Shown here piece after piece: positions 4,543-62,961 of a DNA stretch of 64,000 nt (positions within the stretch are counted from its first letter, which is position 1; every line of letters starts with the position of its first letter). A program made the translations under genes and the position numbers. The stretch lies in contig NZ_CP036455.1 of assembly GCF_004323735.1 (NCBI RefSeq), positions 925,101-989,100 of the forward strand, read 5' to 3'. This stretch comes from Streptomonospora litoralis (GTDB taxonomy: Bacteria > Actinomycetota > Actinomycetes > Streptosporangiales > Streptosporangiaceae). Below the pieces are notes generated by a model, which had not been told where the DNA came from, searched no databases, and saw only the letters and a program-made list of their open reading frames with translations.

Positions 4543-5812
4543 TAAGCCGTGTTTAAGAACGCCGGCCTGCTGTGCGGCCTTGTTGGTCTGCCGGGCGGCG
4601 GGTGGCCTGCGGGGAAAGGCGGCGGCGAGGTCGGCGGTGGGCTGGGCTCCGCGGTTGTCGGGTCGGGTGCCTGACGGTGGCGGCGGTTGGCGGGGGCGGC
4701 GACGACGCCGGCCGGGCCTGGGGTGGTCGGCGTCGGTCACCTGCCTCGGCTGCGGGTGGGCGAGCCCCGGGGGCGCCGCCCGGTCGTCGGGCGGGCCTGA
4801 TGCGAGGCTCTCGGCGGCGGTCATGCGGCCGGGTCGGGGGCACGAGTCGCACGTATGTGCGGCGGCATCCGCCTCGGCGTCGCTCCGAGGCGCCACCCTC
4901 GCACTGTCATTCCGCGATACGAAACAACGCGGGGTGTTTTGTCCACTAATGCCCGAGTTCCCGGTGGGCCCGCGCCCGTGCTGCGGCGGCGAGGGCGCAC
5001 GAGGCGCACCGAATGGCGCGAAAACAGTCCCGGGGGTCAACTTTTCGTGCGTCTCGTGGCCGCTGCGTCCGCCGAGGTCGCCCGCAAATCGGTCATAGGA
5101 CCCCAAAAGTCCACCCCATCGGGCGGTGGAGTCCCCGGCGGCCGCGCCCGGGCACCACGAGCGACGTGTCGTCGCCCCCCGACCTCCGATCCGGCGCGCC
5201 ACCGGGCCGTTCTTCGGGCAGGACCGCGCCACACCGCGCGGCCTCCGGCCTGCGCGGGCCCGGCCGTAACACGGCGGCGGCGCTTCCCAGTCCCCGCGCC
5301 CGCTATGTCCGAGGTGCCGGAGTCGACCGCGGCGATCGTGGCGAAAATCCCAATGAAGGCCGCTGGATTTCGTCATACGGGCACGACCGTCCCGCCGCCC
5401 TGCCGCCATCACGGACACACGGTCCCCTTCCCGGAACCCGGCACCCGCACCGCCCCTCGCCGGGCGGGCCACTACCGGCCACCGGTACCGACACCTGCGA
5501 ACTCGGCCCCACCGCTGCCGTCGCCGCCCTCGTCGCGCGGACCACCGGCGAGCACCCGAAGCGATGGGCACGGGCCCAGCCCCCGCCGTCCTCGGCGCTG
5601 CTTTTCCGCAAGATCGCCCGTCATCCGGCAGACCAACAAGGCCGCCCAGCGGAGCCGACCCGCCACCGTCCTCGGTGCCCGCTGCTCCCCGTCAATCAGC
5701 CCGCCGCTCGGCAGGGGCAAGGCCAAGGGCAAGTCGGCATAGCGGCCCCGAGCTCCACGGCCCGCCCGCCCATGGGAGCCGGATCGATCCAGCACTCCTT
5801 CGACAGGGCTTA
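4543..5812. repeat. large non-coding repeat element, copy 2 (terminal repeats at both ends, core present)
   Basis: The left end reads TAAGCCGTGTTTAAGAACG and the right end, read inward on the other strand, TAAGCCCTGTCGAAGGAGTG, so the ends form an imperfect terminal inverted repeat with TA at each border. An arm unit (GCGGCCTTGTTGGTCTGCCGG, one base over several copies variable) lies at about 4575-4600 forward and about 5625-5655 reversed. Bases about 4795-5225 are the shared core, also seen near 35535-35965, 46845-47140 and 62335-62750. No credible gene is inside. The right-hand TAA is also the stop codon of the neighbouring response regulator. The 135 bases between 4408 and 4542 hold nothing recognised. 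Confidence 0.75.
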
Positions 5813-6466
5813 AACGAGCCCGTTCTCGTAGGCGAAGACGACCGCCTGCGTGCGGTCGCGCAGCGAGAGCTTGGTGAGGATGCGGCCGACGTGGGTCTTC
5901 ACGGTCTGTTCGGCGAGGAACAGCTCTTCGGCGATCTCCCCGTTGGACAGGCCGCGTGCCACCTGGCGCAGCACGTCGGCCTCGCGCGGGGTCAGCTCCC
6001 CGACGGCCTCGGGGCGGGCGTGGATCTTCTCCCGGCGGCGCGCCGCGATGTCGGCGATCAGCCTCCGGGTGATCGAAGGTGCGAGCAGCGCCTCGCCCTC
6101 GGCGACGACGCGCACGGCGGAGCGCAGGTCGTCCACGGTGGCGTCCTTGAGCAGGAATCCGCTGGCTCCCGCGCCCAGGGCCTCGTAGACGTACTCGTCG
6201 AGGTCGAAGGTTGTGAGCATGAGCACCCGGGGGCCGTGTTCGCCGGTCTCGCCGACGATCTCGCGGGTGGCGGCGAGGCCGCTCATCGTGGGCATGCGCA
6301 CGTCCATGACCACCACGTCGGGGTGGTGCTCGCGCGTCAGCGCCACAGCCTCGCCGCCGTCGGCGGCCTGGGCCACGACCGAAATGTCCTCGGCGGCGTC
6401 CAGCAGAGTGGCGATGCCGTCGCGGACCATGTCCTGGTCGTCGGCGACGATGACGGTGATGGGCAC
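5810..6466 (-). CDS. NarL/LuxR-family response regulator
   Basis: 218 residues. The receiver domain occupies residues 1-120, with the acidic pair in VIVADDQD, the phospho-acceptor Asp about 54 in VVMDVRMP, and LLKDA near the conserved Lys. The LuxR-type helix-turn-helix covers about 152-210 (LTPREADVLRQVARG, GEIAEELF, TVKTHVGRI). It lies 10 bases downstream of the sensor kinase gene and is surely its partner. The stop codon TAA is made from the first three bases of the adjacent repeat element's terminal repeat, so insertion may have set the present C-terminus, though the ending is normal for the family. Confidence 0.93.
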   Translation of the reverse strand: MPITVIVADDQDMVRDGIATLLDAAEDISVVAQAADGGEAVALTREHHPDVVVMDVRMPTMSGLAATREIVGETGEHGPRVLMLTTFDLDEYVYEALGAGASGFLLKDATVDDLRSAVRVVAEGEALLAPSITRRLIADIAARRREKIHARPEAVGELTPREADVLRQVARGLSNGEIAEELFLAEQTVKTHVGRILTKLSLRDRTQAVVFAYENGLV

Positions 6467-6476
6467 GGCGGACAGC

Positions 6477-9047
6477 CTAGCCTGGTTCGGCGCCGTCGTC
6501 GGCGGGCCCGTGCGCGCCGCTAGCTACGGGAAGCTCGGCGACGACGTCGAACCCGCCGTCCCCGGTGGGCGCGGCCCGCAGGCTGCCGCCGAGCATGGCG
6601 GTGCGTTCGCGCATGCCCACCAGGCCGTGGCCGCCGGAGTCGAGCGCCGCGGGATGGGGGCTTCCTCGCTCGCCGCCGCCCTGTTCGTGGCCTTCGCCGA
6701 CCGGTGGGCCGTTGACCACCCGAACGGTGAGCGTCGCCGCGGTGCGGGACACGGTGACGGCGACCGGCGCTCCGGGGGCGTGGCGCCCCGCGTTGCTCAG
6801 CGACTCCTGCACGATCCGGTAGGCCGAGACGTCCGCTGCGCCGGGCAGGCCGCGGGCCGCCGCGCGCGCCGCCTCCGGGCCGCCCTCCAGCGTGACGTCG
6901 ATGGACGCGCGGCGCGCGCTCTCCACGAGGTCGGGCAGCATCGCCAGCCCCGGTTGGGGAGCGTCCTCGGGGACCTCGTCCTCCTCGCGCAGCAGCCCGA
7001 CGACGCGGCGCATCTCGGCGAGCGCGTCGCGGGCCGCGTCGCGGACGGTGGTGAACGTGGCCGCGGGACCGGCGTCCAGACCGGGGAACTTGTACGGTGC
7101 CGCGTCGGCCTGGATGGCGATCATGGACATGTGGTGGGAGACCACGTCGTGCAGTTCACGGGCGATGCGGGAGCGCTCCTCCAGCACCGCCTGCCGGGCG
7201 CGGCCGCGGCGGCGCAGCGCGCTCTCCCGGGCCAGCCGCCGCTGCGCGGCGCGGCGGCCGCGGACGTTGTAGCCGAACAGCAGCACGGCGCCGGCGACGA
7301 CCGCGATCCAGAAGGTCTGGCCCGGGTGCGTCCTGACGAGGGGGTAGGCGGCGAAGATATCGGCGACGACGGTGACCAGCCCGACCCCGACGGTGGTCCG
7401 CCCCGGGTAGTTGACGGCTACCGTGTAGAGCACGATCGGCAGGATGAGCAGGGCTGCCGCGGGCCACGGCCACAGCAGGTACGTCGGCAGGTACGGCGAG
7501 GCCGTGTTGACGGTGAAGAGTCCGACGAACAGGCCGGCCGCCATGATCCGCCAGGTCAGCAGGGGAGCCAGCGGCAGCAGGGCGAACGGCAGGCCGATCA
7601 CCGCGCCCAGTAGGACCGCCAGCGTCGGGTCCACCTGGTGCATCTGGACGAGCTGCGCGGCGACGAGCGCGGCGAGGCCCGTGCTGATACCGAGCAGCAG
7701 GAACCAGGCCGTCACCTCTCGGGGCTGCACCGGCGGGACGGGGCGGTCGGCCATCCCGGAGCCGGTCGGCTCCGCCTGGCCGGTCTCGGCCCGCTCGTCG
7801 GGCAGCAGCAGCCACAGCAGCAGGTAGGCGGCGACGCCGAGGGGGAACGAGACGATCGGGAAGAGGATACGCAGCGTGATGGTCATCAGCTCGGAGCCCC
7901 GCCCCAGCCCTGCGCACACGCCCCCGATGATCCGGCCGTGCAGAGGGCGGATCGGACCGTGGAACAGCCGCAGCGGGCCCTGGGGGCGGCCGCCCGGAGT
8001 GCGCCACAGCGCATCCAGAACGGCGCGGACCACGGTCCTCGGGCCGGGGACGCGGTTCCCGTTGTGGTCGGCGGCGGAGTCCTCGGCGCCGAGGCCGCGC
8101 GGATCGCCGCGGCCGTCCGTTTCGCCGGTCAGGGCAGGAGTTTCGGCGCCGGCAGCGGCGTCGGCCGAGATCCGCGCGACGGGGGCGCGCGGGGCGCCGA
8201 CGCTTCGGGGGCGCGCGGCGGGCGGCTCGGGGCGCAGGCGTCCGGTGTCGGCGCGCCGCATGCGCACGTTGTCGCCGAGGAGCAACGCCGCGGCCGCCGC
8301 GGTCGTGCACCACAGGCCCGCCGCCGCGTCGACCGGAGCGATCGCGGTGATCGCGACCACCGCCACCGCGGTGCACACGCCCACGGCGGCGACGGTGGAC
8401 CCGTCGTGCTGGGTGCCCACGAGGAACAGCACGAGCAGGTAGGCCAGGGCGGCGGCCGTCGGGAACGGCAGACCGGGCGCATCCCCGATCGCGAGCAACA
8501 GCCCGACCACCGCCAGCGTCGCGGCCATCAGCCGCCAGGTCAGCAGCACCGAGACCCGTAGCGCCAGCAGCGGCGCGCCGAGGGCGAGACCGAACAGGGA
8601 CGCGTAGAACGATCCGGCGGTGGAGGGGAGTTGGGCGGCGCAGGCCGCGCCCGTGCCGAGCGCGGCCGCGGCGACGGCGAGGATCCCGTCGGTGCGCTCC
8701 CGCCCCTCGGCCGAGGGGCGTTCGGCCAGCCGCAGCAGCCACAGCAGCGGGTAGATCAGCAGCGGCACGACGAAGACCGCGAACCGCCGCCGCACCCAGG
8801 CAGCGGGGAGCCCGTTCCGGGCCGCGATCGCCGCGCAGACACCGCCGAGCAGAGGTGGGGCGGTGTCCTCGCGCTCAGGTTCCGCGGCGGGCAGCCACCG
8901 CCGTACGTCCCGCGGCCGCCGAAGCAGCGCGTCGGCCGCAGCGGCTACCAGTACATCGGTACCGCGCCGACGCGCCGTCCGCGAATCGCGCCCCTCTGCC
9001 GTCCGCCCGGGGCCCGTGCCCCCCGCGGCCTCGTCCTCGTCGGCCAT
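6477..9047 (-). CDS. sensor histidine kinase with duplicated PspC-membrane module
   Basis: 856 residues. A PspC-like segment at about 60-110 (LLGGVCAAIAARNGLP) is followed by several membrane helices. A second PspC-like segment at about 355-415 (IIGGVCAGLGRGSE, AYLLLWLLLPDE) is followed by a second helix set. HisKA_3 dimerisation then gives RSRIARELHDVVSHHM with the phospho-His at about 630, and an HATPase domain ends the protein (AYRIVQESLSNAGRHA, GLVGMRERTAMLGG). The two membrane modules share LLTWR-MAA and GxNVR-R blocks, so the sensor half looks internally duplicated. PspC domains are linked to envelope stress. The response regulator follows 10 bases downstream. Confidence 0.9.
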   Translation of the reverse strand: MADEDEAAGGTGPGRTAEGRDSRTARRRGTDVLVAAAADALLRRPRDVRRWLPAAEPEREDTAPPLLGGVCAAIAARNGLPAAWVRRRFAVFVVPLLIYPLLWLLRLAERPSAEGRERTDGILAVAAAALGTGAACAAQLPSTAGSFYASLFGLALGAPLLALRVSVLLTWRLMAATLAVVGLLLAIGDAPGLPFPTAAALAYLLVLFLVGTQHDGSTVAAVGVCTAVAVVAITAIAPVDAAAGLWCTTAAAAALLLGDNVRMRRADTGRLRPEPPAARPRSVGAPRAPVARISADAAAGAETPALTGETDGRGDPRGLGAEDSAADHNGNRVPGPRTVVRAVLDALWRTPGGRPQGPLRLFHGPIRPLHGRIIGGVCAGLGRGSELMTITLRILFPIVSFPLGVAAYLLLWLLLPDERAETGQAEPTGSGMADRPVPPVQPREVTAWFLLLGISTGLAALVAAQLVQMHQVDPTLAVLLGAVIGLPFALLPLAPLLTWRIMAAGLFVGLFTVNTASPYLPTYLLWPWPAAALLILPIVLYTVAVNYPGRTTVGVGLVTVVADIFAAYPLVRTHPGQTFWIAVVAGAVLLFGYNVRGRRAAQRRLARESALRRRGRARQAVLEERSRIARELHDVVSHHMSMIAIQADAAPYKFPGLDAGPAATFTTVRDAARDALAEMRRVVGLLREEDEVPEDAPQPGLAMLPDLVESARRASIDVTLEGGPEAARAAARGLPGAADVSAYRIVQESLSNAGRHAPGAPVAVTVSRTAATLTVRVVNGPPVGEGHEQGGGERGSPHPAALDSGGHGLVGMRERTAMLGGSLRAAPTGDGGFDVVAELPVASGAHGPADDGAEPG

Positions 9048-9554
9048 TTCCGCTCACCGTCGGGCGTCCCGCCGCATCCACCCCCGCCGGGCCGCAGGGA
9101 CGCCGAGACAGCAGCCCGGTACCCGGCTCACTCTAGGCCGCGGTACCGCGACAGGCATCCCGCGCAGGTATCACCCCGGCGTAGCTCGCAGGGATCCCCG
9201 GTGGGCGGCGCAGGTGCGCCGACCCACGTGCGGGACGGGTCCCTACGCGGTTCCGGCACCTGCTTGCGCACCGGGATCGCCGCGGCCCTTTCGAGCACCG
9301 GCGACCCGTGGACCGGCACGAAGGGGCGCGACGGCTTCGATCCCGCCGGCGGAGGCTCGCCGGGGCACACGCTTCGCGGGCCGTTCCCGAGCCCCGATCC
9401 CCTCCCAAAGGGCGGCCGCCCCGTGCCCTGTCCGGCGCCGGCCGCACCCCTGCGCGCGGGGAGATACGCGTAATCGCGTGCAGGACAGGACTTAGGCTCG
9501 GTGGCAGCGGTCATCCGCCGCGGAGTCGGTCGGCTGGGAAGGAAGCGGTCGGGT
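9048..9554. other. intergenic region between kinase and peptidase; nothing recognised
   Basis: About 500 bases upstream of two divergent genes. It should hold both promoters, but I could not pick convincing hexamers. Open frames on both strands are compositional artefacts. An in-frame GTG at 9501 would lengthen the peptidase by 18 residues without a ribosome site. Confidence 0.5.
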
Positions 9555-10940
9555 ATGGACGTGCGCGGTTACGTCGAAGGGCATCGGGGCGACTTCGTCG
9601 CCGCGCTCAAGGAGTGGGTGGCAATCCCCTCGGTGTCGGCCGATCCCGAACACCACGGCGACGTGCGGCGCTCGGCGGAGTGGCTGCGCGACCACCTCGC
9701 CGCCACCGGGTTCCCGACGGTGGAGGTCTGGGAGACCGACGGCCTGCCCGCCGTCTTCGCCGAATGGCCGGCCGAGGACCCCGACGCGCCCGTCGTGCTC
9801 GTCTACGGCCACCACGACGTCCAGCCCGCCCGCGTCGCGGACGGGTGGGACACCGAGCCTTTCGCGCCCGAGGAGCGCGGTGACCGGCTGGTCGGGCGAG
9901 GGACCTCCGACGACAAGGGCCAGGTGCTCTTCCACGCCCTGGCGGTGCGGGCCGGGCTCGCGGCCTCCGGTCGGAGCGCGCCCCCGGTGACGCTGCGGAT
10001 GCTGATCGAGGGCGAGGAGGAGTCGGGCTCCCCGCACTTCCCCGCGCTGCTCGAACGCCACCGTGACCGCCTGGCCTGCGACGTCGTGGTGATCTCCGAC
10101 ACGACCATGTGGGCCGCCGACACGCCGTCCATGTGCGTCGGGATGCGCGGACTCACCGACTGCGAGATCACCGTCACCGGCCCCGAGACCGACGTGCACA
10201 GCGGCTCCTTCGGCGGTGCGATCCCCAATCCCGCCCGCGCCGTGGCCGACCTGCTCGCCGGCCTGCACGACGACGCCGGCCGCGTCGCTGTTCCCGGGTT
10301 CTACGACGACGTCGCCGAGATCAGCGAAGAGGAGCGGGCCCTCATCGCCAAACTGCCCTTCGACGAGGCCGAGTGGCTGCGCACGGCCGGAAGCCCGGCC
10401 GCCTCCGGCGAAGCCGGCTACAGCACGCTGGAACGCGTCTGGGTGCGGCCGACCGCCGAGATCAACGGGATGTGGAGCGGGCACACCGGCGCGGGCGCGA
10501 AGACGATCGTGCCGCGCTCGGCCCACGCGAAGGTCAGCTTCCGGCTGGTGCCCGGCCAGGAGCCCGCCCGCATCCAGGAGTGCGTGCGCGCGTTCGTGGC
10601 CGACCGCGTCCCCGCCGGCCTGCACGCCGATGTCGTCTTCGGCGGTCCGGGCGTCCGGGCCTGCGCCTCCGACATCGGCTCCGAAGCGGTCCGGTCGGCG
10701 CGCTCGGCGATGGAGCGGGCGTTCGGTACCGAGGTCCTGTTCACCCGCGAGGGCGGCAGCGGCCCCGAGGCCGACATCGCCGACATCCTGGGCGCGCCGC
10801 TGGTCTTCGTCGCCGTCGGGCTGGACGAGGACCGCATCCACGCGCCGAACGAGAAGGTCGAGATCCCGCTGCTGCTCAAGGGCGCCGAGAGCGCCGCCTA
10901 CCTGTGGGAGCGGCTGGGCCGGGCGCCGCGGACCGGGTGA
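9555..10940 (+). CDS. M20-family dipeptidase/metallopeptidase
   Basis: 461 residues from ATG 9555, chosen because GGAAGGAAG lies about ten bases before it and the family starts with this kind of text. Metal and catalytic motifs are in order: VYGHHDVQPA (His ligand and catalytic Asp), GRGTSDDKGQ (bridging Asp), IEGEEESGSP (catalytic Glu and ligand), VVISDTTMW, and a C-terminal HAPNEK with the last His ligand. The insert with DVHSGSFGG is the dimerisation lid typical of CNDP-like dipeptidases. Cytoplasmic hydrolysis of small peptides is the expected role. The nudC gene follows after 91 bases. Confidence 0.92.
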   Translation: MDVRGYVEGHRGDFVAALKEWVAIPSVSADPEHHGDVRRSAEWLRDHLAATGFPTVEVWETDGLPAVFAEWPAEDPDAPVVLVYGHHDVQPARVADGWDTEPFAPEERGDRLVGRGTSDDKGQVLFHALAVRAGLAASGRSAPPVTLRMLIEGEEESGSPHFPALLERHRDRLACDVVVISDTTMWAADTPSMCVGMRGLTDCEITVTGPETDVHSGSFGGAIPNPARAVADLLAGLHDDAGRVAVPGFYDDVAEISEEERALIAKLPFDEAEWLRTAGSPAASGEAGYSTLERVWVRPTAEINGMWSGHTGAGAKTIVPRSAHAKVSFRLVPGQEPARIQECVRAFVADRVPAGLHADVVFGGPGVRACASDIGSEAVRSARSAMERAFGTEVLFTREGGSGPEADIADILGAPLVFVAVGLDEDRIHAPNEKVEIPLLLKGAESAAYLWERLGRAPRTG

Positions 10941-11031
10941 GCGCGGACCGCGCAGCGCCGGCGGAAGCGCCGGACGCGGCGCTGGAAGGGGGCCCCTGCG
11001 TCCCGCCACCCGCCTACGATGAGAAGAGCCG

Positions 11032-11994: not shown

Positions 11995-12033
11995 GCCGCC
12001 GGGCCCCGTCACCCCGGCCGCCCGAGCGGGCGG

Positions 12034-12519: not shown

Positions 12520-12597
12520 GTCTTTCCCCAATTCCTCACTCCCCGTGAAATGCGCCGGCCGCCGTCCGTTGCGGGCGGCGGCCCTGGTGCCGCGCGA

Positions 12598-27331: not shown

Positions 27332-27343
27332 CCGTTCGCCGAT

Positions 27344-27372
27344 TTGGTGTGAGCGCCGGGGAACGGTAGTCT
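27344..27372 (+). promoter_or_regulatory. promoter of initiator tRNA copy 1
   Basis: TTGGTG (27344-27349) and TAGTCT (27367-27372) are separated by 17 bases and lie 13 bases ahead of the tRNA. The identical pair recurs with the same spacing in front of the second tRNA copy, which supports the call. Confidence 0.7.
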
Positions 27373-27385
27373 GAAGACACACCGA

Positions 27386-27459
27386 CGCGGGGTGGAGCAG
27401 TTCGGTAGCTCGCTGGGCTCATAACCCAGAGGTCGCAGGTTCAAATCCTGTCCCCGCTA
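27386..27459 (+). tRNA. initiator tRNA-Met (CAT), copy 1
   Basis: A 74-base cloverleaf starting CGCGGGGTGG and ending CCCCGCTA. The anticodon loop CTCATAA reads AUG. Three consecutive G:C pairs (GGG/CCC) flank the anticodon loop and base 1 (C) cannot pair with base 72 (T); both are hallmarks of initiator tRNA. CCA is not encoded. The T-loop is GGTTCAAATCC. Promoter and terminator are present, so it is a complete single-gene unit. The second copy at 28463 is identical. Confidence 0.95.
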
Positions 27460-27464
27460 CGAGC

Positions 27465-27500
27465 AAAGGCCCGGTCCCGGTTTTCCGGGGCCGGGCCTTT
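27465..27500 (+). terminator. terminator of tRNA copy 1
   Basis: AAAGGCCCGG and CCGGGCCTTT form the outer stem, with an inner CCGG/CCGG pair and a TTTT loop. A short T-run is part of the stem end. It is repeated with small changes after copy 2. Confidence 0.8.
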
Positions 27501-27808
27501 CTGCGCTAAGCCCTGTTTAAGAAGTGCTGGATCGGCCCGGCTCCCATGGGCGGCCGGGCCGTGCCACTCGGGTTCGCTGTGCGGTCTTGCTGGTCTGCCA
27601 GGGTGCGGGTGGTCTTGCCGGGAAAGCGGCGGCGAGGACGGCGGTGGGCTAGGCCTGCGGTCGACGGGTCGGGGACTCGCCGGTGGCGGCGGCCGGCGGA
27701 GGGCGGCGTTCGGCTGCCGCGGGCCGCTCGGCGCATCTATTGCGAGGTTTTCACCGGATTCCGGCCGTTGGCTGGTCGAAACCCTGCAATAGGTGGCACC
27801 GGTCCCAT

Positions 27809-27864
27809 CGAGTCTGTCTGTGGGGCTGGATTCGGCGCCGAATCCAGCCCCACAGACAGACTCG
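27809..27864. repeat. perfect 56-bp palindrome (copy A)
   Basis: Two 28-base arms, no spacer, centred on GGCGCC: CGAGTCTGTCTGTGGGG then CTGGATTCGGC, mirrored exactly. A second copy at 35317-35372 differs at two positions in each arm, both compensated. It is followed closely by GCGCGGCTTG in both copies. Confidence 0.9.
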
Positions 27865-27883
27865 GCGCGGCTTGTTCCGATAC

Positions 27884-27934
27884 CGTGAACTTATGGCCGC
27901 GGAATGCGCATTCCCGTGGGCATGAATTCACGAT
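27884..27934. repeat. hairpin of the 53-nt family, diverged copy
   Basis: CGTGAACTTATGGCCGC on the left and a partly matching CATGAATTCACG on the right, with an inner GGAATG/CATTCC pairing. It occupies the same place, just after the 56-bp palindrome, as the cleaner copy at 35391-35443. Confidence 0.6.
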
Positions 27935-28420
27935 AGACGCCGGATGAACCGGCATATCAGACATACCGGCGCCCGGTCGCCGTCGCACGCGCCACCGCCC
28001 GCGAACAGGGCCGCCCGCCGCCCCGTCGGCTGCGCCACCGGCGGGCACCCGGCTCGATGACCGCGGGCTGGGCCATCCGCCGCCGTCGCCGCCGCTGTTC
28101 CCCGTCAGACCGCCTGCCACCCGGCAGACCGACAAGGCCTCGACAAGGCCGCACAGCCAACCCGAGCCGCCCCGCCGAGCCCCCAACCGGCGAGCACCCG
28201 ACCCGGCAACCGCAGGCGCAGCCCATCGCCGGCGTCGCACTGCTTTCCGGTGAAGACCGCCCGACACCCGGCAGGCCAGCAAGGCCGTACAGCAGACCGG
28301 CGTTCTTAAACAGGGCTTAGTTAGGGGCGACGCCCCTGCCAGCGCGGTAGCTGCCCGTCGGCATGGCCCGTCGGCTTTCTGCGTGTGGGTGCCGTCACAG
28401 CGGCGGAGCAGAGTATCGAT

Positions 28421-28449
28421 TTGGTGTGAGCGCCGAGGAACGGTAGTCT
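28421..28449 (+). promoter_or_regulatory. promoter of initiator tRNA copy 2
   Basis: TTGGTG (28421-28426), 17 bases, TAGTCT (28444-28449): the same elements and spacing as copy 1. Only two of roughly 45 upstream bases differ. Confidence 0.7.
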
Positions 28450-28462
28450 GAAGACACACCAA

Positions 28463-28536
28463 CGCGGGGTGGAGCAGTTCGGTAGCTCGCTGGGCTCATA
28501 ACCCAGAGGTCGCAGGTTCAAATCCTGTCCCCGCTA
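28463..28536 (+). tRNA. initiator tRNA-Met (CAT), copy 2
   Basis: Identical in all 74 bases to the copy at 27386-27459, including the C1/T72 mismatch and the GGG/CCC anticodon stem of initiator tRNA. Flanking promoter and terminator are also duplicated, so a unit of about 170 bp was copied as a whole. The repeat element lies between the two units. Confidence 0.95.
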
Positions 28537-28542
28537 CGAGCG

Positions 28543-28577
28543 AAGGCCCGGTCCCGGATTTCCGGGGCCGGGCCTTT
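28543..28577 (+). terminator. terminator of tRNA copy 2
   Basis: AAGGCCCGG pairs with CCGGGCCTT around CCGGATTTCCGG, ending in TTT. It differs from the copy 1 terminator by isolated substitutions only. Confidence 0.8.
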
Positions 28578-28720
28578 CTGTGTGTTCGGCGCGTGGGAGT
28601 GGATACCGCTGTGCGGACACCTCTCGCACATAATCCGGACTGCGCGGGCACACTCGCCACGGGCGACGCCACGCCTTGCCGAGTCGCCGCCCGTTGCGAC
28701 TGCGTTCGTGGACTACGGGC

Positions 28721-34888: not shown

Positions 34889-35316
34889 ATAGGTGGAATG
34901 GGGCGTCTGGGGCGGGGCCGGTCCGTTGGGCGATCTTGCTGGTCTGCCGGGTGTCGGGTGGTCTTCATGGGGGAGCGGCGGCGGGGGCGGCGGCGGGGGC
35001 GGCGGTGGGTTGCGCCTGCGGTTGTCGGGTCGGGCGCTCGCCGGTGGCGGCGGTTGGCGGCCGGCGGGGCGGCGGGTCGGGTCTGCTGTGCGGCCTTGTT
35101 GGTCTGCCGGGTGTCGGGCCGCCTGCACGGAAAAGCGGCGGCGAGGGCGGCGGAGGGCCGGGCCCGCGGTCGCCGGGTCGGGTGCTGGCCGGTGGCGCGC
35201 CCGGCGGCGGGCGGCGTTGGGCCGCCGCGGGCCGGTCGGCGCATCCAACGCGCGGTTTTCACCGGATTCCGGCCGCTGTCTGGTTACAACCCTGCGTTGG
35301 GCGGCACCGGTGCCAT

Positions 35317-35372
35317 CGAGTCTGTCTGCAGGGCTGGATTCGGCGCCGAATCCAGCCCTGCAGACAGACTCG
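35317..35372. repeat. perfect 56-bp palindrome (copy B)
   Basis: Same 28-base arms as 27809-27864 except that TGTGGGG is TGCAGGG in the left arm and CCCCACA is CCCTGCA in the right arm. Both substitutions are matched on the opposite arm, so the palindrome stays perfect. Confidence 0.9.
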
Positions 35373-35390
35373 GCGCGGCTTGGCCCGTCT

Positions 35391-35443
35391 ATCGTGAACT
35401 TATGGTCGCAGGAAGGCGTATTCTGCGGCCATAAGTTCGCGAT
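35391..35443. repeat. 53-nt hairpin (copy in element 4)
   Basis: ATCGTGAACTTATGGTCGCAG pairs (21 bases, counting two G-T wobbles) with CTGCGGCCATAAGTTCGCGAT across an 11-base loop. Its reverse complement is identical in all 53 bases to the copy at 47195-47247. Confidence 0.85.
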
Positions 35444-36480
35444 CATCGCCGGATGGACCGGCATAGGGGACCTACCGGCGCCGGTGCGCCGGCTGGGTAC
35501 CGCCGTGTTCCGACCAGGCCCGCACCGGCCGGGGGATCGCGCGGTGCGGCGCGGTCGCGGGCGCCCGTACGCCCGGGGGTGCACCGGATCGGGGGCCCGG
35601 GGGCGACGACACGTCGCTCGTGGCGCCCGGGCGCGGTCGCCGGGAGTCCCATCCCCCGATGGGGTGGGCTTTTGAGGGTCTATGACCGTTTTGCGGGCGG
35701 CGTCGGCGGGCGCCGTGGTCACGAGGTGCACGAAAAGTCGACGCCGGGGCTGTTTTCGCGCCATTCGGTGCGCCTCGTGCTCCGTCGCCGCCGCAGCGCG
35801 GGCGTGGGCCCACCGAGGAATCGGGCATTGGTGGACAAAATGCCCAGTTTTGTTTCGTATCGCGGAATCGTGGTGCGCGGGTGGCGCCTCGGGGCGGCGC
35901 CGAGGCGGGTGCCGCCGCACGTACGTGCAACTCGTGGCCCCATCGGGTCATGACCGCCGCCGACTGCCTCGCGTCGGACGTCGCCGACAACCCGAACCGC
36001 GGCTCCCGGGGTTCACCCACCCGCGGCCAGGGGCGGTGATTGCCGCCGACCACCGCGGGCCCGGCCCCGCCGGCGTTGTCGCCGCATCGTCGGGTGGGTC
36101 ACCGGCGGGCACCGGGTGCGTCGATCGCGGGCTTAGCCCACTGCCGTCCTCGGTGCCCGTCGTTCTCCGTCAGGTTGCCCGTTTCCCGGCAGACCATCAA
36201 GGCCGCCCAGCGGACCGGGGCCGCTTTCGTCGGCCGCCGCCAGCGGCGAGCACCCGACCCGGTAGCGCGGCCCCAGCCCCGCTGCCACCGTCGCCGCCGC
36301 TGTTTTTCCAGGTCACCCGTTTCTCGGCAGACCGGCAAGGCCGCCCAGCGGACCGGGGCCGCTTTCGTCGGCCGCCGCCAGCGGCGAGCACCCGACCCGG
36401 TGAGCGCGGCCCTCACCCCTCTCACCCCCCGCGGCGGTACTCCCCTCCTTCTGTCACCCCCCGCGGCTAGGCTTTGGCAC

Positions 36481-45637: not shown

Positions 45638-46021
45638 ATGGCGATCATGCGAGGACTACGGGGCACCGCCGACCTGCGGGTCGGCGAGGAGGACACCGCC
45701 CTGGCCCTGGGCAGCGGCGATGTGCCGGTGCTGGCCACGCCGCGCGTGCTGGCGCTCGCCGAGGCGGCGACGGTCGCCGCGACGGCCGGGCAGCTGGACG
45801 AGGGCAGCACCACGGTGGGCACCGAGGTCGCGCTCTCGCACCTGGCTGCCTCGGCCGTGGGCGCCGGGGTGCGGGCCGAGGCCGGGCTGCGGCTGGTCGA
45901 CGGCAAGCGGCTGGTCTTCGACGTCACCGTGGCCCAGACCGGCGGCGGAGAGTTGGCGCGCGGCACCGTAGAGCGCGTGGTGGTCGACCGCGCGCGCTTC
46001 ACGGCCGCCGCGCGGTCCTAA
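45638..46021 (+). CDS. FlK-like hot-dog thioesterase
   Basis: 127 residues. Hot-dog fold text ATPRVLALAEAATVAAT, LDEGSTTVGTEVALSHLAAS, RLVDGKRLVFDVTVAQ and GTVERVVVDRARF matches the fluoroacetyl-CoA-thioesterase-like group, including the Thr/Glu/His positions (STTVGTEV...SHLAA). Role: hydrolysis of a short acyl-CoA, true substrate unknown. The TAA stop at 46019-46021 is the first three bases of the adjacent repeat element's terminal repeat, so the element abuts the gene exactly. Confidence 0.85.
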   Translation: MAIMRGLRGTADLRVGEEDTALALGSGDVPVLATPRVLALAEAATVAATAGQLDEGSTTVGTEVALSHLAASAVGAGVRAEAGLRLVDGKRLVFDVTVAQTGGGELARGTVERVVVDRARFTAAARS

Positions 46022-47611
46022 GCCGTGTTCGAGAAGTGCTGGATCGGTCCGACTCCGATGGGCGGGCGGGCCGTTGGGCTCGAATCCGCTACGCGGACTT
46101 GCCTTGGCCTTGCCCCTGCCGAGCGGCGGGCTGGTTGACGGAGAGCAGCGGGCACCGAGGACAGCGGTGGGTCGGGCCGCCGGTCGAGGGGTCGGGGGCT
46201 CGCCGGTTGAGCGCCCGACGAGGGCTGCTCGGGTCGGTTGGGCGGCCTTGTCGGTCTGCCGGGTACGGGCGGTCGTACGGAAAAGCGGCGACGGCGGCGG
46301 TGGGCCGGGCTCCGCGGTCACCGGGTCGGGTGCCCGCCGGTGGCGCGCGCGACGGGGGCTGCTCGGGTCGGTTGGGCGGCCTTGTTGGTCTGCCGGATGA
46401 CGGGCGATCTTGCGGAAAAGCAGCGCTGAGGACGGCGGGGGCTGGGCCCGTGCCCAACGGGCCGGGTGCCCGCCGGTCGGGCGTGCGGCGGGGCGGGTCG
46501 GCTCCGCTGGGCGGCCTTGTTGGTCTGCCGGAAGGCGGGGTGGTCTTCACTGGAAAGCGGCGGCGACGGTGGCGGATGGCCGGGCCTGTGGTTGCCGGGT
46601 CGGGTGCTCGCCGGTGGCGCACCCGACGCGGACCCGGCCCGCTGGGCGGCCTTGTCGGTCTGCCGGATGACGGGTGGACGTGGCTGAAAAGCCGCGGCGA
46701 GGACGGCGGATGGCCGGGCCTGCGCACGTCGGTTCCGGTACTCGCCGGTGACGGCGGCCGACGAGGGCGGCGACGACGCTGGCGGGCCGTGCCCGTGGTA
46801 GTCGGGGCAGCGGTCACCGGCCCCGGCCGCGGAGGGTCGAGCCACAACACGGGTGTTTTGTCAGTCAATACCCGATTCCTCGGTGGACCCGCAGTCGCGC
46901 CGCGGCGGCGATGGCCCACGAAGCGCGCTGAATGGCGCGAAAACGCCTCCGAGGTCAACTTTTCGTGCGTCTCGCGGCCGTTGCGTCCGCCGAGGCCGCC
47001 CGCAAAACGGTCATATGCTCTCAAAAGTCGGCTCCATCGGGGGGCGGGGGGGGGCAGCCGGCGGCCGCGTCCGGGCGCCACGCGCGACGTGTCGTCGCCC
47101 CCGGGCCCCCGATCCGGCGCACCCCGGGGGCGTGCGAGCGCCGGTGCGGGCCCGGCCGGAACACGGCGACACCCAGCCGGACATACCGGCGATGATCGCG
47201 AACTTATGGCCGCAGAATACGCCTTCCTGCGACCATAAGTTCACGATAGACGGGCCAAGCCGCGCCGCAGGCGCCCCGCCGCTCGGCAGACCAGCAAGGC
47301 CGCCCAGCGGAGCCGACCCGTTCGCGTCGGCCACGGTCACCGGCGGGCACCGGGTGCGTCGACCGCGGGCCCGGCCCTCCGCCGCCCTCGCCGCCCGTCG
47401 TTCCCCGTCAGGCGCCCCGCCGCTCGGCAGACCAACAAGGCCGCCCAGCGGAGCCGACCCGTTCGCGTCGGCCACGGTCACCGGCGGGCACCCGACCCGA
47501 CGACCGCGGGCCCGGCCCTCCGCGGCCGTCGCCGCTGCATCTCCGAGACCGCCCGTCATTCGGCAGTCCAACAAGGCCGCACAGCAGATCGGCGTCCTTA
47601 ATCACGGCCTA
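46019..47611. repeat. large non-coding repeat element, copy 5 (1593 bp, longest arrays)
   Basis: Left end TAAGCCGTGTTCGAGAAGTG, right end read inward TAGGCCGTGATTAAGGACGC. Forward arm units recur at about 46240, 46375, 46509 and 46643, a period of about 135 bp. Reversed units lie at about 47285, 47426 and 47561. Between them are a core portion (about 46845-47140) and the 53-nt hairpin (47195-47247). The 56-bp palindrome is absent. No gene is inside. The 199 bases from 47612 to 47810 hold nothing recognised. Confidence 0.8.
47195..47247. repeat. 53-nt hairpin (copy in element 5)
   Basis: ATCGCGAACTTATGGCCGCAG and CTGCGACCATAAGTTCACGAT flank an 11-base loop. It is the exact reverse complement of the copy at 35391-35443. 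Confidence 0.85.
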
Positions 47612-47810
47612 CTAACCGCGGCTCTCCCGCGGGGCTGCGGAAACCCACCGGGAGGCGCCGGGGCCGGGACCGCCCGGGGGCCGCGGCTATGGGCGCCGAT
47701 GCGCGAAGCGCCGTGCGCCGGCTTGCTGCCGAGCGCATGCCGCGGCTTCCCGCAGACCTCAGCCGTCCGCCCGGCCGCGCCTGTCGTGCCGCCCGTTGCC
47801 GCTTCTTCGC

Positions 47811-54309: not shown

Positions 54310-54334
54310 CCGCGCGCTCGGCGCGCGGCTACCC

Positions 54335-55560: not shown

Positions 55561-55721
55561 GTCCCTCCTTGCGGGAAGCGAGATTGCCGCTTGAGTGCAA
55601 TCTATCGTGTTTCGGTCCGCGCCCGGTGCACACACCTGCGCCCGTGTCCCGTCCGCGGCTTACGACCTCTAGTCTCGGACACCGCCCGGCCGCAGCCGGA
55701 AGAGCCGCGCGCTCCGGCGGG

Positions 55722-56216: not shown

Positions 56217-56362
56217 GGCTCTCCTCGAAAGCGGCGGATGGTCGGAGGGGCACGTGGCGTGCCCGCGGCAAGGCGAAGGCGGCGGCCGCCGGTCGCCTCC
56301 TACGCTACCCAGCGCCGATGCGCGCCGGGCCGCCGCGGACGCCGGCGCGCGCCGCCGGCGCC

Positions 56363-57115: not shown

Positions 57116-57207
57116 CCGGTCGTCTCCGTGGCCGGTCACCGCACCGGCTTCCGCGGTGTTCTGGGTCAACTCGCCGTCCTGCTCACTACTCGCCGTGAAT
57201 CCGTCCG

Positions 57208-58164
57208 CTACGCCGCACCGCGGACACCGACGGTCCGCGTGCCGCGGTCGGCGCGGTTGAACGTCTGCTCCAGGTAGTACTGGATCACCATCATCACGCT
57301 GGTGATCGCCAGGTACCACAGGCAGGCGGCCACCAGCATCGGGAAGAGGTTGAAGGTGCGGGCGCCGATCTGCTGGAGCTGGAAGAACAGCTCGGTGGTC
57401 AGCGGGATCGCCGACACCAGCGAGGTGTCCTTCATGATCGCCGTGGCCTCGTTGCCGGTCGGCGGGATGATCACCCGCAGCGCCTGGGGCAGGGTGATGC
57501 GCCGGAGCACCAGCCCGTGGCTCATGCCCAGCGCCTGGGCCGCCTCGGTCTGGCCTTTCTCGACCGACAGCAGTCCGGCGCGCACGATCTCGCCCATGTA
57601 GGCGCCCTGCGACAGCGACAGCGCGATGACCGCCGCGACGAACGGGCTGAGCAGCGTCTCCATCGGCACCGAGTAGAACCGGGCGCCGTCCTCGAAGCCG
57701 AGCAGCGGCAGCCAGTAGTTGTCGAAGGGGACGCCGAACTCGATCGTCTGGTACAGGATCGCGATGTTGCCGAACAGCACGCACAGCACGATGCGCGGCA
57801 CCGCGCGGAAGAACCAGGTGTACACCCACGCCACGGCAACCAGCACCGGGTTGTCCGACAGGCGCATGATGGCCACGACGATGCCGATCGCGATGCCGAT
57901 CGCCAGCGACACCGCCGCCAGGATGATCGTCGTGCGCACACCGATGAGCACCGGCGCGGAGAACATCTGCTCGAACAGGAACGGCCAGTCGAAGGCGTCG
58001 TTCGTGATGAGCATGTGCACGAACATCGCGGCGAGCAGCAGCAGGACACCCGCCGCGACCCAGCGGCCGGGATGGCGGACGGGTACGGCCTTGACGGGTT
58101 CGGGCGGGGATTGCCCGGCCGGCGCGCCGTACGCCGGCCGGGGGGAGTCGGGAGTGGTGCTCAC
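57208..58164 (-). CDS. amino-acid ABC transporter permease
   Basis: 318 residues from GTG 58164 (GGAAGGC just upstream). After a Pro-rich cytoplasmic head of about 35 residues come membrane helices from about 38. The HisM/GlnP-type block is [18 protein letters not shown] with the EAA loop, followed by [30 protein letters not shown] single permease implies a homodimer. It lies between binding protein (17 bases) and ATPase (92 bases). Confidence 0.94.
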
Positions 58165-58181
58165 GTGCCTTCCGGTGCCTT

Positions 58182-59135
58182 CTAGCCCTCGACGGACGGG
58201 TTGACCTCGGCCTGGTCCAGGGTGCCCTGGCCGTCGAGCTCCCACTCGGCGAGGATCTCGGTGTAGGTGCCGTCGTCCATGATGCTCTGGTAGCCGGCGC
58301 GGATCGCCTCGGCGAGCTCGGTGGCGTCCTTGGCGGTGATGGCGCCGTAGGGGGCGGCCTCGTACTGCTCGCCGATCGTCTGCAGTTGGCCCTCGGTCTG
58401 CTCGACCGCGTAGACGGCGACCGGCATGTCGGCGAGACCGGCGTCGTTGCGCCCGGAGATGATCGACTCGGTGGCCTGGTTCTGGCCCTTGTACTTGCTG
58501 ACGTTGATCTGCTGCTCGCCGTTGTCGACGCACTCCTGGCTGCGCGCCTCGATGTCGGGCACCTGGATGGTGTTGGCCTGCACCGCGACGTTCTTGCCGC
58601 AGGCGTCGTCCGGGGCGACGTTCTCCGGGTTGCCCTCGGCGGTGAACCACTGGGTGCCCACGGTGTAGTAGCTCACCATGTTGACCTGCTGCATGCGCTC
58701 CTCGTTGATGGTGAACGAGGAGACGCCGACGTCGTATTTGCCGGTGTCGACGCCCTCGACGATGGTGCCGAACGCGGAGCTCTGCCACCGCGTCTGGAGG
58801 TCGAGCTTGGCGGCGACCGCGTTGAACAGCTGCACGTCGAAGCCGACGACGGTCTCGCCGTCGGGAGAGAGGTACTCGGCCGGGGGATAGGTGGAGTCGG
58901 TCCCGATCTTGACGAAGCCCTGGTCGCGGATCTCCTGGGGGACCATGTCGGCGAGTTCGGGATCGGCCTGGACCGACGGCGTGGACGCGGGGGAGGCGGC
59001 CCCGCCCCCGGTGCCGCCTTCGCCGCCACCGCCGCCGCAGGCCGACAGCGCCAGCAGGGCGGCCAGGGCGCCCGCGTAGTAGGGCGCGCGTCCGAAGCGG
59101 GCAGCCGGCGCGGTCAGGTGCTTGAGCACGGCCAC
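58182..59135 (-). CDS. amino-acid ABC transporter substrate-binding lipoprotein
   Basis: 317 residues from GTG 59135, chosen because AAGGAGA lies six bases upstream; a longer frame lacks this. The signal peptide ends LLALSACGG, a lipobox, followed by a Gly/Ser/Ala linker. [60 protein letters not shown] and [20 protein letters not shown] are the SBP_bac_3 fold for polar amino acids. First gene of the transporter operon. Substrate not determined. Confidence 0.93.
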
Positions 59136-59520
59136 GTTTGTCTCCTTCTTCCGAGCGAACGGCGTCGGGTGGTCGGCGTTCGCATCCTCACGCTCGTGGC
59201 GAGTAGTCGAATGCGCAGCATAAAGGTTCTTGCGGACGTAACTGTCCATGGTCACCGGCCCGGCATGTTCATGGGGTCACCGTTGTGAGAGAATTGGGTA
59301 ACGGGTCAACCCCGTCACACACTGCGGCGCCGGGCTCGCACCGAGCCGCGGAGACCGACTCCCCCGATCGCAACGGCATCGTCCCCGGCGCGGGGAGTCC
59401 AGCGCACTCAGCATCCCTGCCCCCTCCGCGCGCCGCCTCTGCAGACTGCAGCGACAACGAAGCCGCGCCCTCACCTGCCCACGCGGGCGCATTCGCATCC
59501 TTGAGGGGTTTTGCACAGAT
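59136..59520. other. intergenic region between transporter operon and malic enzyme
   Basis: 385 bases with promoters for two divergent units. GGGGTCACC-GTTGTGAGAG near 59274-59290 and GGGTAACGGGTCAACCCCGTCAC near 59297-59320 (broken here by shared TCA steps) look operator-like but match no motif I can name. No gene recognised. Confidence 0.4.
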
Positions 59521-60699
59521 ATGGCGACCACTGATTCCCATCGATTCGACGACGATCCGGCGTTCGCGCTGCACCGCGGCGGCAAGCTGCGCGTGGAGGG
59601 CTCCGTCGACGTGAGCGACCACGAAGGGCTCGCCCTGGCGTACACGCCCGGTGTGGCACGCGTGTGCTCCGCGATCGCCGACTCCCCGGAGCTCGTCGAC
59701 ACCTACACCTGGAAGAGCTCGGTCGTGGCCGTGGTCACCGACGGTTCGGCCGTGCTGGGGCTCGGCGACATCGGCCCGCAGGCGTCGCTCCCGGTCATGG
59801 AGGGCAAGGCGCTGCTGTTCCGCAAGTTCGCCGGCGTCGACGCCGTGCCGGTGGCGCTCGACTGCAGCGGCGTGGACGACATCGTCGAGACCGTCGAGCG
59901 CATGGCCCCCTCGTTCGGCGGCGTCAACCTGGAGGACATCTCGGCACCGCGCTGCTTCGAGATCGAGCGCCGACTGCGGGACAGCCTGGACATCCCGGTC
60001 TTCCACGACGACCAGCACGGCACCGCCATCGTCACGGTCGCGGCGCTGCGCAACGCGGCGCGGCTGAGCGGGCGCACGCTGGGCGACCTGCGGGTGGTGG
60101 TCTCCGGCGCCGGGGCGGCCGGAGTGGCGGTGACCAAGATGCTGGTCGAGGGCGGTATCGGCGACATCGCCGTCGCCGACAGCAAGGGCGTGATCTACGC
60201 CGGGCGCGACGGGCTGACCCCGATCAAGGCCGAGATCGCCGAGATCAGCAATCGCTCGGGGCTGCGCGGCTCGGTCGAGGCCGCGCTGGAGGGTGCCGAC
60301 GTCTTCATCGGGCTTTCCGCCGGGGAGATCCCCGAGTCCGTGGTGGCCGGCATGGCCCCCGACGCCATCGTCTTCGCCATGGCCAATCCGACCCCCGAGA
60401 TCCACCCGGACGTCGCCCGCGCCCACGCCGGCGTCGTCGCGACGGGCCGCAGCGACTTCCCCAACCAGATCAACAACGTGCTGGCGTTCCCCGGTGTGTT
60501 CCGCGGAGCGCTGGACGCCCGCGCGAGCGACATCACCGAGGCGATGAAACTCGCCGCCGCCGACGCCATCGCCGACCTCGTGCGCGAGGACCTCACCGCC
60601 GACTACATCATCCCGAGCACGTTCGACTCGCGGGTGGTCCCGGCGGTCGCCGAGGCGGTGGCCGACCAGGCCCGCCGCGACGGCATCGCCAGAGCGTAG
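59521..60699 (+). CDS. NAD-dependent malic enzyme
   Basis: 392 residues. [20 protein letters not shown] is the conserved N-terminal signature (Tyr of the catalytic pair), [20 protein letters not shown] carries the catalytic Lys, and [17 protein letters not shown] is the metal site. [20 protein letters not shown] is the dinucleotide fold and [28 protein letters not shown] complete the domain. It is the short bacterial form without the phosphotransacetylase tail. It decarboxylates malate to pyruvate. Confidence 0.95.
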
Positions 60700-60721
60700 T
60701 CGTACGATTATCGCGTGTAGT

Positions 60722-60756
60722 CGATCCGGGGCGCAGGTCACCCTCGCCCCGGATCG
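60722..60756 (+). terminator. GC hairpin after the malic enzyme gene
   Basis: CGATCCGGGGCG (60722-60733) pairs perfectly with CGCCCCGGATCG (60745-60756). No T-run. It sits between convergent genes and could end both transcripts. Confidence 0.6.
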
Positions 60757-60772
60757 CAGACACCCCCCTGTG

Positions 60773-60973
60773 TCAGAGGCAGCGTCCCACGGCGGCGACG
60801 ACGAACGCCGCCCACGCCCCCGCGGGGAACCGCAGGGCCGCGCCGTCAGGCGCCGTGGAGTCGCGGACCCGTACGCCCCTGGCCCACCGCATCACCTGGA
60901 CGCACTGGCCTCCCCCTGTTCCGCTGTAGGTGCTCGTGCGCCATCGCACGCCCAGCGGATCCTTCGCGGCCAT
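60773..60973 (-). CDS. DUF397 domain protein
   Basis: 66 residues. VRWRTSTYSGTGGGQCVQVM, VRVRDSTAPDGAALRFPAGAW, AAFV is the complete DUF397 fold. These small proteins are almost always encoded next to an XRE/DUF5753 regulator in actinomycetes and are thought to work with it in development or antibiotic control. AAGGGAG precedes the ATG, 12 bases after the regulator's stop codon. Confidence 0.92.
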   Translation of the reverse strand: MAAKDPLGVRWRTSTYSGTGGGQCVQVMRWARGVRVRDSTAPDGAALRFPAGAWAAFVVAAVGRCL

Positions 60974-60985
60974 GCCGCGCTCCCT

Positions 60986-61882
60986 TCATGTCTCATCCGT
61001 TTCCCCCTCCTCCTGGCTCCGCAGGCGCTGCTCCGCCTCGCCGATGACCTCGCGGGTCCGGTCGGGGTGCAGTGCCGCGGTGCGCAGGTGTTCGAAAGCG
61101 ACCGTGTAGAAGGCGACTTCTTTGGCTTTTTCGATGTAGAGGCTGCTGGTCAGATTCTCCACGTGCACCAGCCGCGGCGCGTGGATGTCGGATTCGGGGA
61201 ACTCCAGGATGTCGAAGGAGCCGTTGAGGCCCGAATGGGCGCCGGCCTCGAACGGCAGGATCTGCAATGTCACATGGGGTTTCTCATGTATGTCGAGCAA
61301 ATGCCGCATTTGGGCCGACATGACCGTCGGCCCGCCTACCGGGCGGTACAGGATTGATTCGTCCAGCAGTGCCCAGATATGCGGTGGGGAGTCGTTGAAG
61401 ATGACCTCTTGGCGGCGTATGCGCAGTTCGGTGCGGCGGTCGATCTCTTCCTGGGAGACCGGCGAGGGGTGCGCCCGCATCAGCGCCCGCGCATAGTCCG
61501 CGGTCTGGAAGAGGCCGGGGACGATCTCGGCTTGGAAGAAGCGCAGTGTGCCGGCTTCGGGCTCCAAGCCGAGGTACACCTCGAAGCGCTCCGGCATCAC
61601 GTCGCCGTAGACGTGCCACCAGCCGCGGCGCCGCGACTCGCGGGCGAGCATGATCAGCGACTGGCGCAATCCGGGGTCGCCGACCTCGTAGAGTTCCAGC
61701 AGGTCCCGCACGTCGTCGGAATTGGTCGCCACCTGACCGCGCTCGATGCGGGAGAGTTTGCTGCCCGACCACGACATACGCTCGGCGGCCTCTTCCCCGG
61801 TCATTTGCGCGTTCTCCCGCAATCGGCGCAATTCGACGCCGAGGCGGCGCCGGCGGGCCGTCGGGTTGTTGGCAGCGGCCAC
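60986..61882 (-). CDS. XRE-family regulator with DUF5753 (Scr1-like)
   Basis: 298 residues from GTG 61882 with AGGAGG seven bases before. Helix-turn-helix at about 12-70 (LGVELRRLRENAQMTGEEAA, ERMSWSGSKLSRIERG). The DUF5753 effector part follows from about 100 (EAGTLRFFQAEIVPGLFQT, YARALM, LRIRRQEVIFN, HVTLQILPFEAGAHSGLNGS). The pair with DUF397 is typical of filamentous actinomycetes, which often carry tens of such pairs. DNA target unknown. Confidence 0.92.
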   Translation of the reverse strand: MAAANNPTARRRRLGVELRRLRENAQMTGEEAAERMSWSGSKLSRIERGQVATNSDDVRDLLELYEVGDPGLRQSLIMLARESRRRGWWHVYGDVMPERFEVYLGLEPEAGTLRFFQAEIVPGLFQTADYARALMRAHPSPVSQEEIDRRTELRIRRQEVIFNDSPPHIWALLDESILYRPVGGPTVMSAQMRHLLDIHEKPHVTLQILPFEAGAHSGLNGSFDILEFPESDIHAPRLVHVENLTSSLYIEKAKEVAFYTVAFEHLRTAALHPDRTREVIGEAEQRLRSQEEGETDET

Positions 61883-62111
61883 GGCTGTGCCTCCTGTTCG
61901 GGGGGAGAGGCCGGAGTGCCTCTGGGGGCCGTCGATCGGGGCGGGCGGCAGGGGTGATTCCGCCAGGGGATAGGAAGAAGGCTACTCGACATGGGATAGC
62001 GCGGAATCCGCCGAGTACGCGAGCCTTGCGCCGTGCTTTATACCCGCCCCTCGACCATTTCCCCGGTGATGTCCGCCGACGGTTTGGGGCGGGTATCGGT
62101 ACCGGTCCGAC

Positions 62112-62961
62112 TAAGCCGTGTCTAAGAGGTACTGGATCGGTCCGGCCGCATGGGCGGCGCAGGGCTGGGCCCGCGGTCGACGCACCCGGTGCTCGCCGGT
62201 GGCGCGCCGGGCGGGGGCGGCGTTGGGCCGCCGCGGGCCGGTCGGCGCCGCTTGGCCCGTCTATCGCGAACTTATGGTCGCAGGTAAGCGTATTCCGCGG
62301 CCATAAGTTCACGATCATCGCCGGTATGTCCGGCCGGGCCCGCACCGGCGCTCGCACGCCCCCGGGGTGCGCCGGATCGGAGGTCGGGGGGCGACGACAC
62401 GTCGCGCGTGGCGCCCGGGCGCGGCCTCCGGGAGTCCCACGGCCCGATGGGGTGGGCTTTTGGGGGCTTGTGCCCGTTTTGCGGGCGGCCTCGGCGGGCG
62501 CAACGGCCACGAGACGCACGAAAAGTCGACGTCGGGGGGCGTTTTCGCGCCATCCGGCGCACCTCGTGCGCCATCGCTGCCGCAGCGCGGCTGCGGGCCC
62601 ACCGGCAACTCAGGCATTAGTTGACAAAACACCCCGTGTTGTTTCGTATCGCGGAATGACGGTGCGAGGACGGCGCCTCGGGGCGGCGCCGAGGCGGGTG
62701 CCGCCGCACCTACGTGCATCTCGTGGCCCCGACCCGGCCGCATGACCGCCGCCGACCGCCCCGTATCAGGCCCGCGCCGACAACCGAGCGGCGCCCCCGA
62801 GCTCGACCACCCGCGGCTGGGGCCGGCAGCACCCGGGGCTCGACCACCGCAGGCCCGGCCCCGCCGCCGTCGCCGCCGCTTTCCGGTCAAGACCGCCCGT
62901 TGCCCGGCAGACCATCAAGGCCGCCCAGAGGACCCGAGCCGCCCCAGCGCTCAAGCGGGGC
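62112..62961. repeat. large non-coding repeat element, copy 6 (right end worn)
   Basis: The left end TAAGCCGTGTCTAAGAGGTA matches the family. On the right only a worn trace (GCCCCGCTTGAGCGCTGG read inward, ending at 62961) remains. It holds the 53-nt hairpin (62263-62315), the core inverted relative to copy 2 (about 62335-62750), and one reversed arm unit near 62905-62935. No palindrome of the 56-bp type. No gene is inside. The following 77 bases to the SdpI-like start hold nothing recognised. Confidence 0.7.
62263..62315. repeat. 53-nt hairpin (copy in element 6)
   Basis: ATCGCGAACTTATGGTCGCAG and CCGCGGCCATAAGTTCACGAT flank an 11-base loop; one pair at the loop side is lost relative to the 35391 copy. 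Confidence 0.8.

Follow-up and report, generated by a model that had tools for sequence, protein, structure and literature searches.

The closest published relative that we found for the repeats described here is BrickBuilt, a miniature inverted-repeat transposable element (MITE) of Porphyromonas gingivalis. BrickBuilt is non-coding, intergenic and of variable length, carries internal tandem repeats, and has terminal inverted repeats (TIRs) matching those of insertion sequences (ISs) of the IS5 family (PMC4596501). Its 19 copies range from 84 to 991 nt and contain 23-nt direct repeats; both TIRs are present in only 4/19, another MITE lies inside one copy, and the size range of MITEs is given as 50-1000 bp (PMC4596501). 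In this study, we report the characterisation of a family of gene-free repeats in a 64,000-nucleotide stretch of the Streptomonospora litoralis chromosome (the window), which are probably orphaned, oversized, foldback-shaped, non-autonomous DNA transposons of the IS5 type, most of them decayed. A giant MITE or fold-back element mobilised in trans had been offered in the original prediction, a first reading of the window from its letters, and this is the best-supported reading because the IS5-type TIRs are shared with ISs of relatives, the corresponding sites in congeners are empty, the arms are inverted, and the copies hold no genes.

Self-BLAST of the window linked five large copies and one 148-bp fragment through arms, core and hairpins, as had been proposed for the five regions. 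The copies are numbered here from left to right as elements 1-5, and the fragment is counted separately; the numbering of the original prediction fits if its copy 1 is this fragment (1759-1906), which its list lacked. Four of the five copies keep the borders first assigned to them, and the one placed at 34920 starts nearer to 34893. The features of the window are as follows.

Element 1, 4543..5812, minus strand: A end on the left, B end on the right and a reversed core between them; TIRs at 4543-4559 and at 5796-5812.
Element 2, 27507..28319, plus strand: B end left, A end right; TIRs 27507-27523 and 28303-28319; lies between two tRNA-Met(CAT) genes.
Element 3, 34893..36420, plus strand: full core, flanked by two U units on the left and about three on the right; TIRs not recognisable.
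Element 4, 46019..47611, minus strand: B end on the left and A end on the right, with the core standing the other way round from the more frequent layout; TIRs at 46019-46035 and at 47595-47611.
Element 5, 62112..62961, plus strand: B end left; right end not recognisable.
Solitary U unit, 1759..1906, plus strand: fragment belonging to this family, 148 bp.
K1 palindrome of element 2, 27809..27864, no strand: perfect, 56 bp.
K1 palindrome of element 3, 35317..35372, no strand: perfect, 56 bp; compensatory differences from the K1 of element 2.
K3 core block of element 3, 35560..36020, plus strand: further predicted hairpins.
Left-arm tandem U units of element 4, 46222..46640, plus strand: about three units.
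Short remnant, 47679..47743, no strand: adjoins element 4 and resembles a MITE of a congener (G005, below).

The layout consists of an A end, inward-facing U units of ~137 bp, a multi-hairpin core (K0-K1-K2-K3), opposed U units and a B end, with one to about five U units on the A side. Module mapping indicated that the core stands in either direction or is partial, and that many small matches are a single U unit or a single core piece. As in foldback elements, the arms are long, inverted and built from tandem units, and the predicted fold of element 2 is one long end-to-end rod of -546 kcal/mol, with a z of -16.9 relative to 20 shuffled sequences. Chance similarity is likely in general at the 72% G+C of this chromosome, and repeats of mixed origin might on that account pass for a family; core matches between copies, however, extend over several hundred bases at ~80-90% identity, and a reversed-pattern control gave 0. 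The long core matches refute this explanation, to which we attach a negligible probability.

The ends follow the consensus TAAGCC[G/C]TGTTTAAGAA. Measured against its G form, the mismatches are 0 and 4 for element 1, 1 and 1 for element 2, 2 and 3 for the two ends of element 4, and 2 for the left end of element 5; the motif is absent at both borders of element 3. The inverted end sequence predicted at both ends of 4543-5812, 27507-28319 and 46019-47611 and at the left of 62112-62961 was therefore present, and TA stood, as also predicted, at every motif-bearing end in the window. Genome-wide, the motif (up to 2 mismatches) occurs 27+28 times in S. litoralis (reversed-pattern control, 0). In 1.65 Mb, 24/24 motifs (up to 3 mismatches) were located at outer element borders, facing inwards (reversed control, 0). 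These motifs continue into an A sequence (CGCCGGTCTGCTG) in 15 cases, a B sequence (GTGCTGGATCGG) in 8 and neither in 1. Further properties were determined on 99 elements, an enlarged set in which loci with a TIR or core are over-represented. Both ends are recognised in 14/99, and in 13 of these 14 one end is A and the other B; with the A/A case excluded, the orientation of the ends agrees with that of the core in 22/27 and disagrees in 5/27. In an enlarged, non-random set, TA begins 43 ends and is preceded by C in 35/43, compared with 33% for TA across the sampled genome.

The copy number was estimated from five contiguous chromosome segments totalling 1.564 Mb, or 27% of the 5,724,192-bp (5.72 Mb) chromosome. 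These contained 69 family matches (44/Mb; 3.2% of the DNA), and the chromosome samples outside the window gave 42/Mb. By extrapolation, the genome would hold ~250 copies, or ~190 if only those of at least 200 bp are counted, in agreement with the prediction of very many per genome. The matches range from 58 to 1843 bp (median 480), with small members also represented (17/69 below 200 bp). Bacterial MITEs are usually small; with 31/69 matches of at least 800 bp, this family departs from the small size that defines them. The second replicon of the genome (89,998 bp, 90 kb) contained 0 family matches, with ~4 expected at the chromosomal density. The same length has been published for phiM2, a prophage/episome of S. 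litoralis (PMC8448680). A phage or plasmid origin was considered and set aside; element 3 had no blastn match in a phage or plasmid collection.

Gene calls were made using a purpose-written gene caller. As predicted, no transposase or other gene lies within the copies: no called gene is inside any of the five window copies, the sole overlaps being the size of a stop codon, and ten open reading frames overlapping them matched no Pfam family. An Rfam scan of the window at gathering thresholds returned two tRNAs only. Elements 1 and 4 start or finish on a called stop codon. Among the sampled elements, 68 had both neighbours called, and one of these overlaps a called coding sequence by 484 bp while the rest overlap by 3 bp or less. 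Their neighbours are convergent in 22, tandem in 36 and divergent in 10 cases, and convergent pairs are enriched (22/68 against 234/1371) relative to background gene pairs (n = 1371, second replicon included: 234 convergent, 907 tandem, 230 divergent). Such avoidance of coding sequence and preference for convergent genes would also suit functional chromosomal sites, whether structural, terminator-like or RNA-producing, held by selection at fixed places. Against this, the window sites lack the element in congeners, and the core orientations, 19+/23- over the first half of the chromosome and 17+/10- over the second, give no clear strand rule. The chromosomal structural element first proposed as the other possibility was set aside on these two grounds, and we regard functional sites at fixed places as improbable.

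Congeners are denoted G001-G005 (the host being G000), and absence was judged from the size of the gap opposite each element. In G002-G005, the gap opposite elements 1-4 measures 1-216 bp. Element 5 faces 322 bp in G005, 257 bp in G003 and an unexplained 1309 bp in G002, and G004 has no coverage there. The available stretch of G001 covers element 2 only and is consistent with absence. In G003, the site of element 4 reads CCTAGA, and the element stands after CC-TA. Outside the window, a joined-flank test found the element at 2,234,032 absent in 5/5 congeners and that at 4,504,134 missing from two (G004 and G001), with only the left flank matched in the remaining three. A search of the genus gave 1-6 weak matches in each of G001-G004, a further point against sites held in place by selection. 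Empty sites, which the original prediction had suggested looking for, were found by gap size. High copy number and insertion differences, here between species, are as in MITEs.

Element 2 is bordered by two 164-bp stretches (27340-27503 and 28417-28580), 97.6% identical and each carrying a tRNA-Met(CAT) gene; in G002-G005 the second 164-bp stretch comes next with no element between.

Full-length transposons with near-identical ends were found in relatives of the host. The ends TAGGCCCTGTTTAAGAA bound six ISs in G004 (1037-1038 bp), of which five are near-identical and one is 85% like them, and G023, from another genus of the same family, contains five of 1037 bp, one of which ends in TAGGTCCTGTTTAAGAAG and TAGGCCGTGTTTAAGAAG. 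The protein of the one G004 copy scanned carries DUF4096 (PF13340) and DDE_Tnp_1 (PF01609); of the two kinds suggested, IS630- or IS5-like, the matching ISs found are of the IS5 type. IS fragments are present in G001. These ISs share near-identical TIRs, TAGG(C/T)C(C/G)TGTTTAAGAAG, and the TA border with the S. litoralis elements, and the B end of the elements resembles, by eye, the left end of the G004 IS just inside the TIR; they differ in their length of 1037-1038 bp, in having a transposase frame, and in lacking U units and the hairpin core. A longer end pattern (up to 1 mismatch) was found in 6/120 genomes of the family: G000 (17+17), G005 (7+4), G004 (3+3), G023 (2+3), and G068 and G069 (one each).

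We propose that an IS5-type DDE transposase recognising TA(A/G)GCC(G/C)TGTTTAAGAA would have moved the copies in trans, inserting them at C-TA-G-like sites, sometimes stop codons, and presumably duplicating TA. The autonomous IS may later have been lost from S. litoralis, leaving ~250 copies, which would decay, lose ends and gain or lose U units, and whose core may sometimes be flipped by recombination between the inverted arms.

Several observations weigh against this history. No match to PF13340 or to the DNA of the G004 IS was found in S. litoralis, these being the one domain and the one IS sequence searched. MITEs are expected to have an autonomous partner in the same genome, and none of the IS5 type was found here with those two queries; such a partner is not strictly required for old MITEs. 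No TIR is recognisable in 60/99 elements even of the set enriched for TIR-bearing loci, and some TIR-less copies have longer flanks in common. When 196 borders were examined, the 74 U-anchored outer ends comprised 31 with a TIR (up to 5 mismatches), 12 starting with CGGCTCG and 31 with neither. No recent burst can be seen, since the U units of different elements are ~25% divergent. The empty-site junctions, both in the window and at the two outside elements, are too diverged for a TA duplication to be read from them base by base. At two further joined-flank sites, the flanks lie kilobases apart in congeners (3,073,121) or the left flank is the sole match (4,393,020). The strongest result comes from congener G005, in which large blocks of 1.5-2.5 kb (loci L207-L226) have arms sharing ~70 bp of U at 66-84% identity. 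Of 18 blocks scanned, three of them inspected in full, 11 contained end-like motifs (up to 3 mismatches) internally and 0 had one at an outer border, which indicates that arms and core can amplify without outer IS5-type ends. The core of these blocks showed no match to that of S. litoralis, and only 1/18 G005 elements could be placed on the sampled S. litoralis segments.

These findings bear on a second explanation, in which arms plus core are an independent repeat, spread like the REPIN/BIME repeats discussed below, by another enzyme or through in-place tandem growth, and IS5-type ends were captured secondarily by one subfamily. Besides the G005 blocks, with their related arms, other core and lack of outer TIRs, it draws on the recurrence of the CGGCTCG boundary (12/74 anchored ends), on the small forms U-hairpin-U and U-hairpin, and on the U units themselves: in the 190 gathered, mean identity is 0.809 within one arm, 0.755 between opposite arms and 0.746 between different elements. 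Arms seem to grow by local duplication without being homogenised across the element, since same-arm units are the most alike; homogenisation by conversion was rejected because opposite arms are hardly closer than different elements. In TIR-bearing copies, however, the junction to the element is near-constant (A or B follows in 23/24) and the parts stand in a directional order. We consider this independent-repeat explanation a minority possibility, of perhaps one chance in a handful, and retain IS5-type transposition in trans as the probable origin. A second spreading route in addition is possible because 60/99 elements lack a recognisable end and the sister species amplifies related arms without such outer ends. 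At three loci (G000:C1:2484540-2484860, 2540810-2541110 and 262320-262600), a single U unit is combined with a single K1-like hairpin; these small forms, two of which have flanking sequence in common, may be a separate subfamily.

The K1 hairpin was analysed in a 56-bp alignment of 21 distinct copies, left from 32 rows after removal of 7 fragments and 4 letter-identical repeats; the rows were gathered using the palindrome itself, and related copies inflate the covariation counts. Standard pairs occupy 92.5% of cells, and sliding the partner strand abolishes pairing. Changes on both sides occur in 45 cells compared with 17.3 in shuffles (0/500 reach 45), the covariation score is 0.226 compared with 0.114 (0/500), and 8/26 pairs have changed on both sides (reached by 16/500 shuffles); further pair types show no excess (16 against 18.3). 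The K1 palindrome thus maintains pairing through compensatory changes. This would favour functional sites kept by selection, but template-switch correction of palindromes can maintain pairing without selection, and both fit the data. One K1 pattern had no match in GTDB r220 contigs or IMG/VR, from which the host genome itself may have been omitted. A more speculative proposal, which we think rather unlikely, is a bacterial counterpart of eukaryotic foldback elements whose hairpin core is a working part. Selection would hold the core paired, either in single-stranded DNA or in RNA (e.g. as an aid to strand transfer or a structured transcript), which would let an element without genes reach ~3% of a chromosome, and sister species would share arms and swap cores.

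Elements of foldback shape that hold no genes, reach 1.84 kb and occupy ~3% of a 5.7-Mb chromosome, with their likely mover missing, are unusual in size and load. They make it possible to test how large non-coding mobile DNA can spread and endure in a bacterium, and whether the long hairpins within it are selected or maintained by mutation. No earlier description of this element family, and no foldback anatomy among bacterial elements, was found in the literature at the level of titles and abstract openings.

Comparison with other repeats places the family among known kinds. G005 carries 37 end motifs, and the twelve loci inspected, distinct from its large blocks, are short MITEs with other interiors, with five end pairs spanning 285-393 bp. 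They resemble the S. litoralis elements in their nearly identical TIRs, two distinct ends and nested hairpins, and differ in interior. Short matches like these MITEs occur at seven places in 1.76 Mb of S. litoralis, including 1659-1720 and 47679-47743 of the window. The foldback elements of animals (Drosophila FB/Galileo, nematode Tm1) are eukaryotic, have long inverted arms of tandem units and belong to other transposase superfamilies; the arms are a feature in common, whereas host and transposase superfamily differ. REPINs (repetitive extragenic palindromic (REP) doublets forming hairpins) and bacterial interspersed mosaic elements (BIMEs) comprise inverted pairs of 20-40 bp repeat units around a spacer, in many intergenic copies, and depend on Y1 transposases (REP-associated tyrosine transposases, RAYTs); inverted pairs and many intergenic copies are alike, and the ~137-bp units and IS5-type ends differ. 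By their ends, we judge the S. litoralis elements to be related to, and to work like, IS5-type MITEs, of which they are a variant in size and shape. The kind is already known, because BrickBuilt likewise has TIRs of the IS5 family, tandem repeats inside, ends that are incomplete in most copies, and a MITE inserted in one of them (PMC4596501); unlike BrickBuilt, the S. litoralis family has ~250 copies by extrapolation, reaches 1.84 kb, and surrounds a multi-hairpin core with inverted arms of ~137-bp units.

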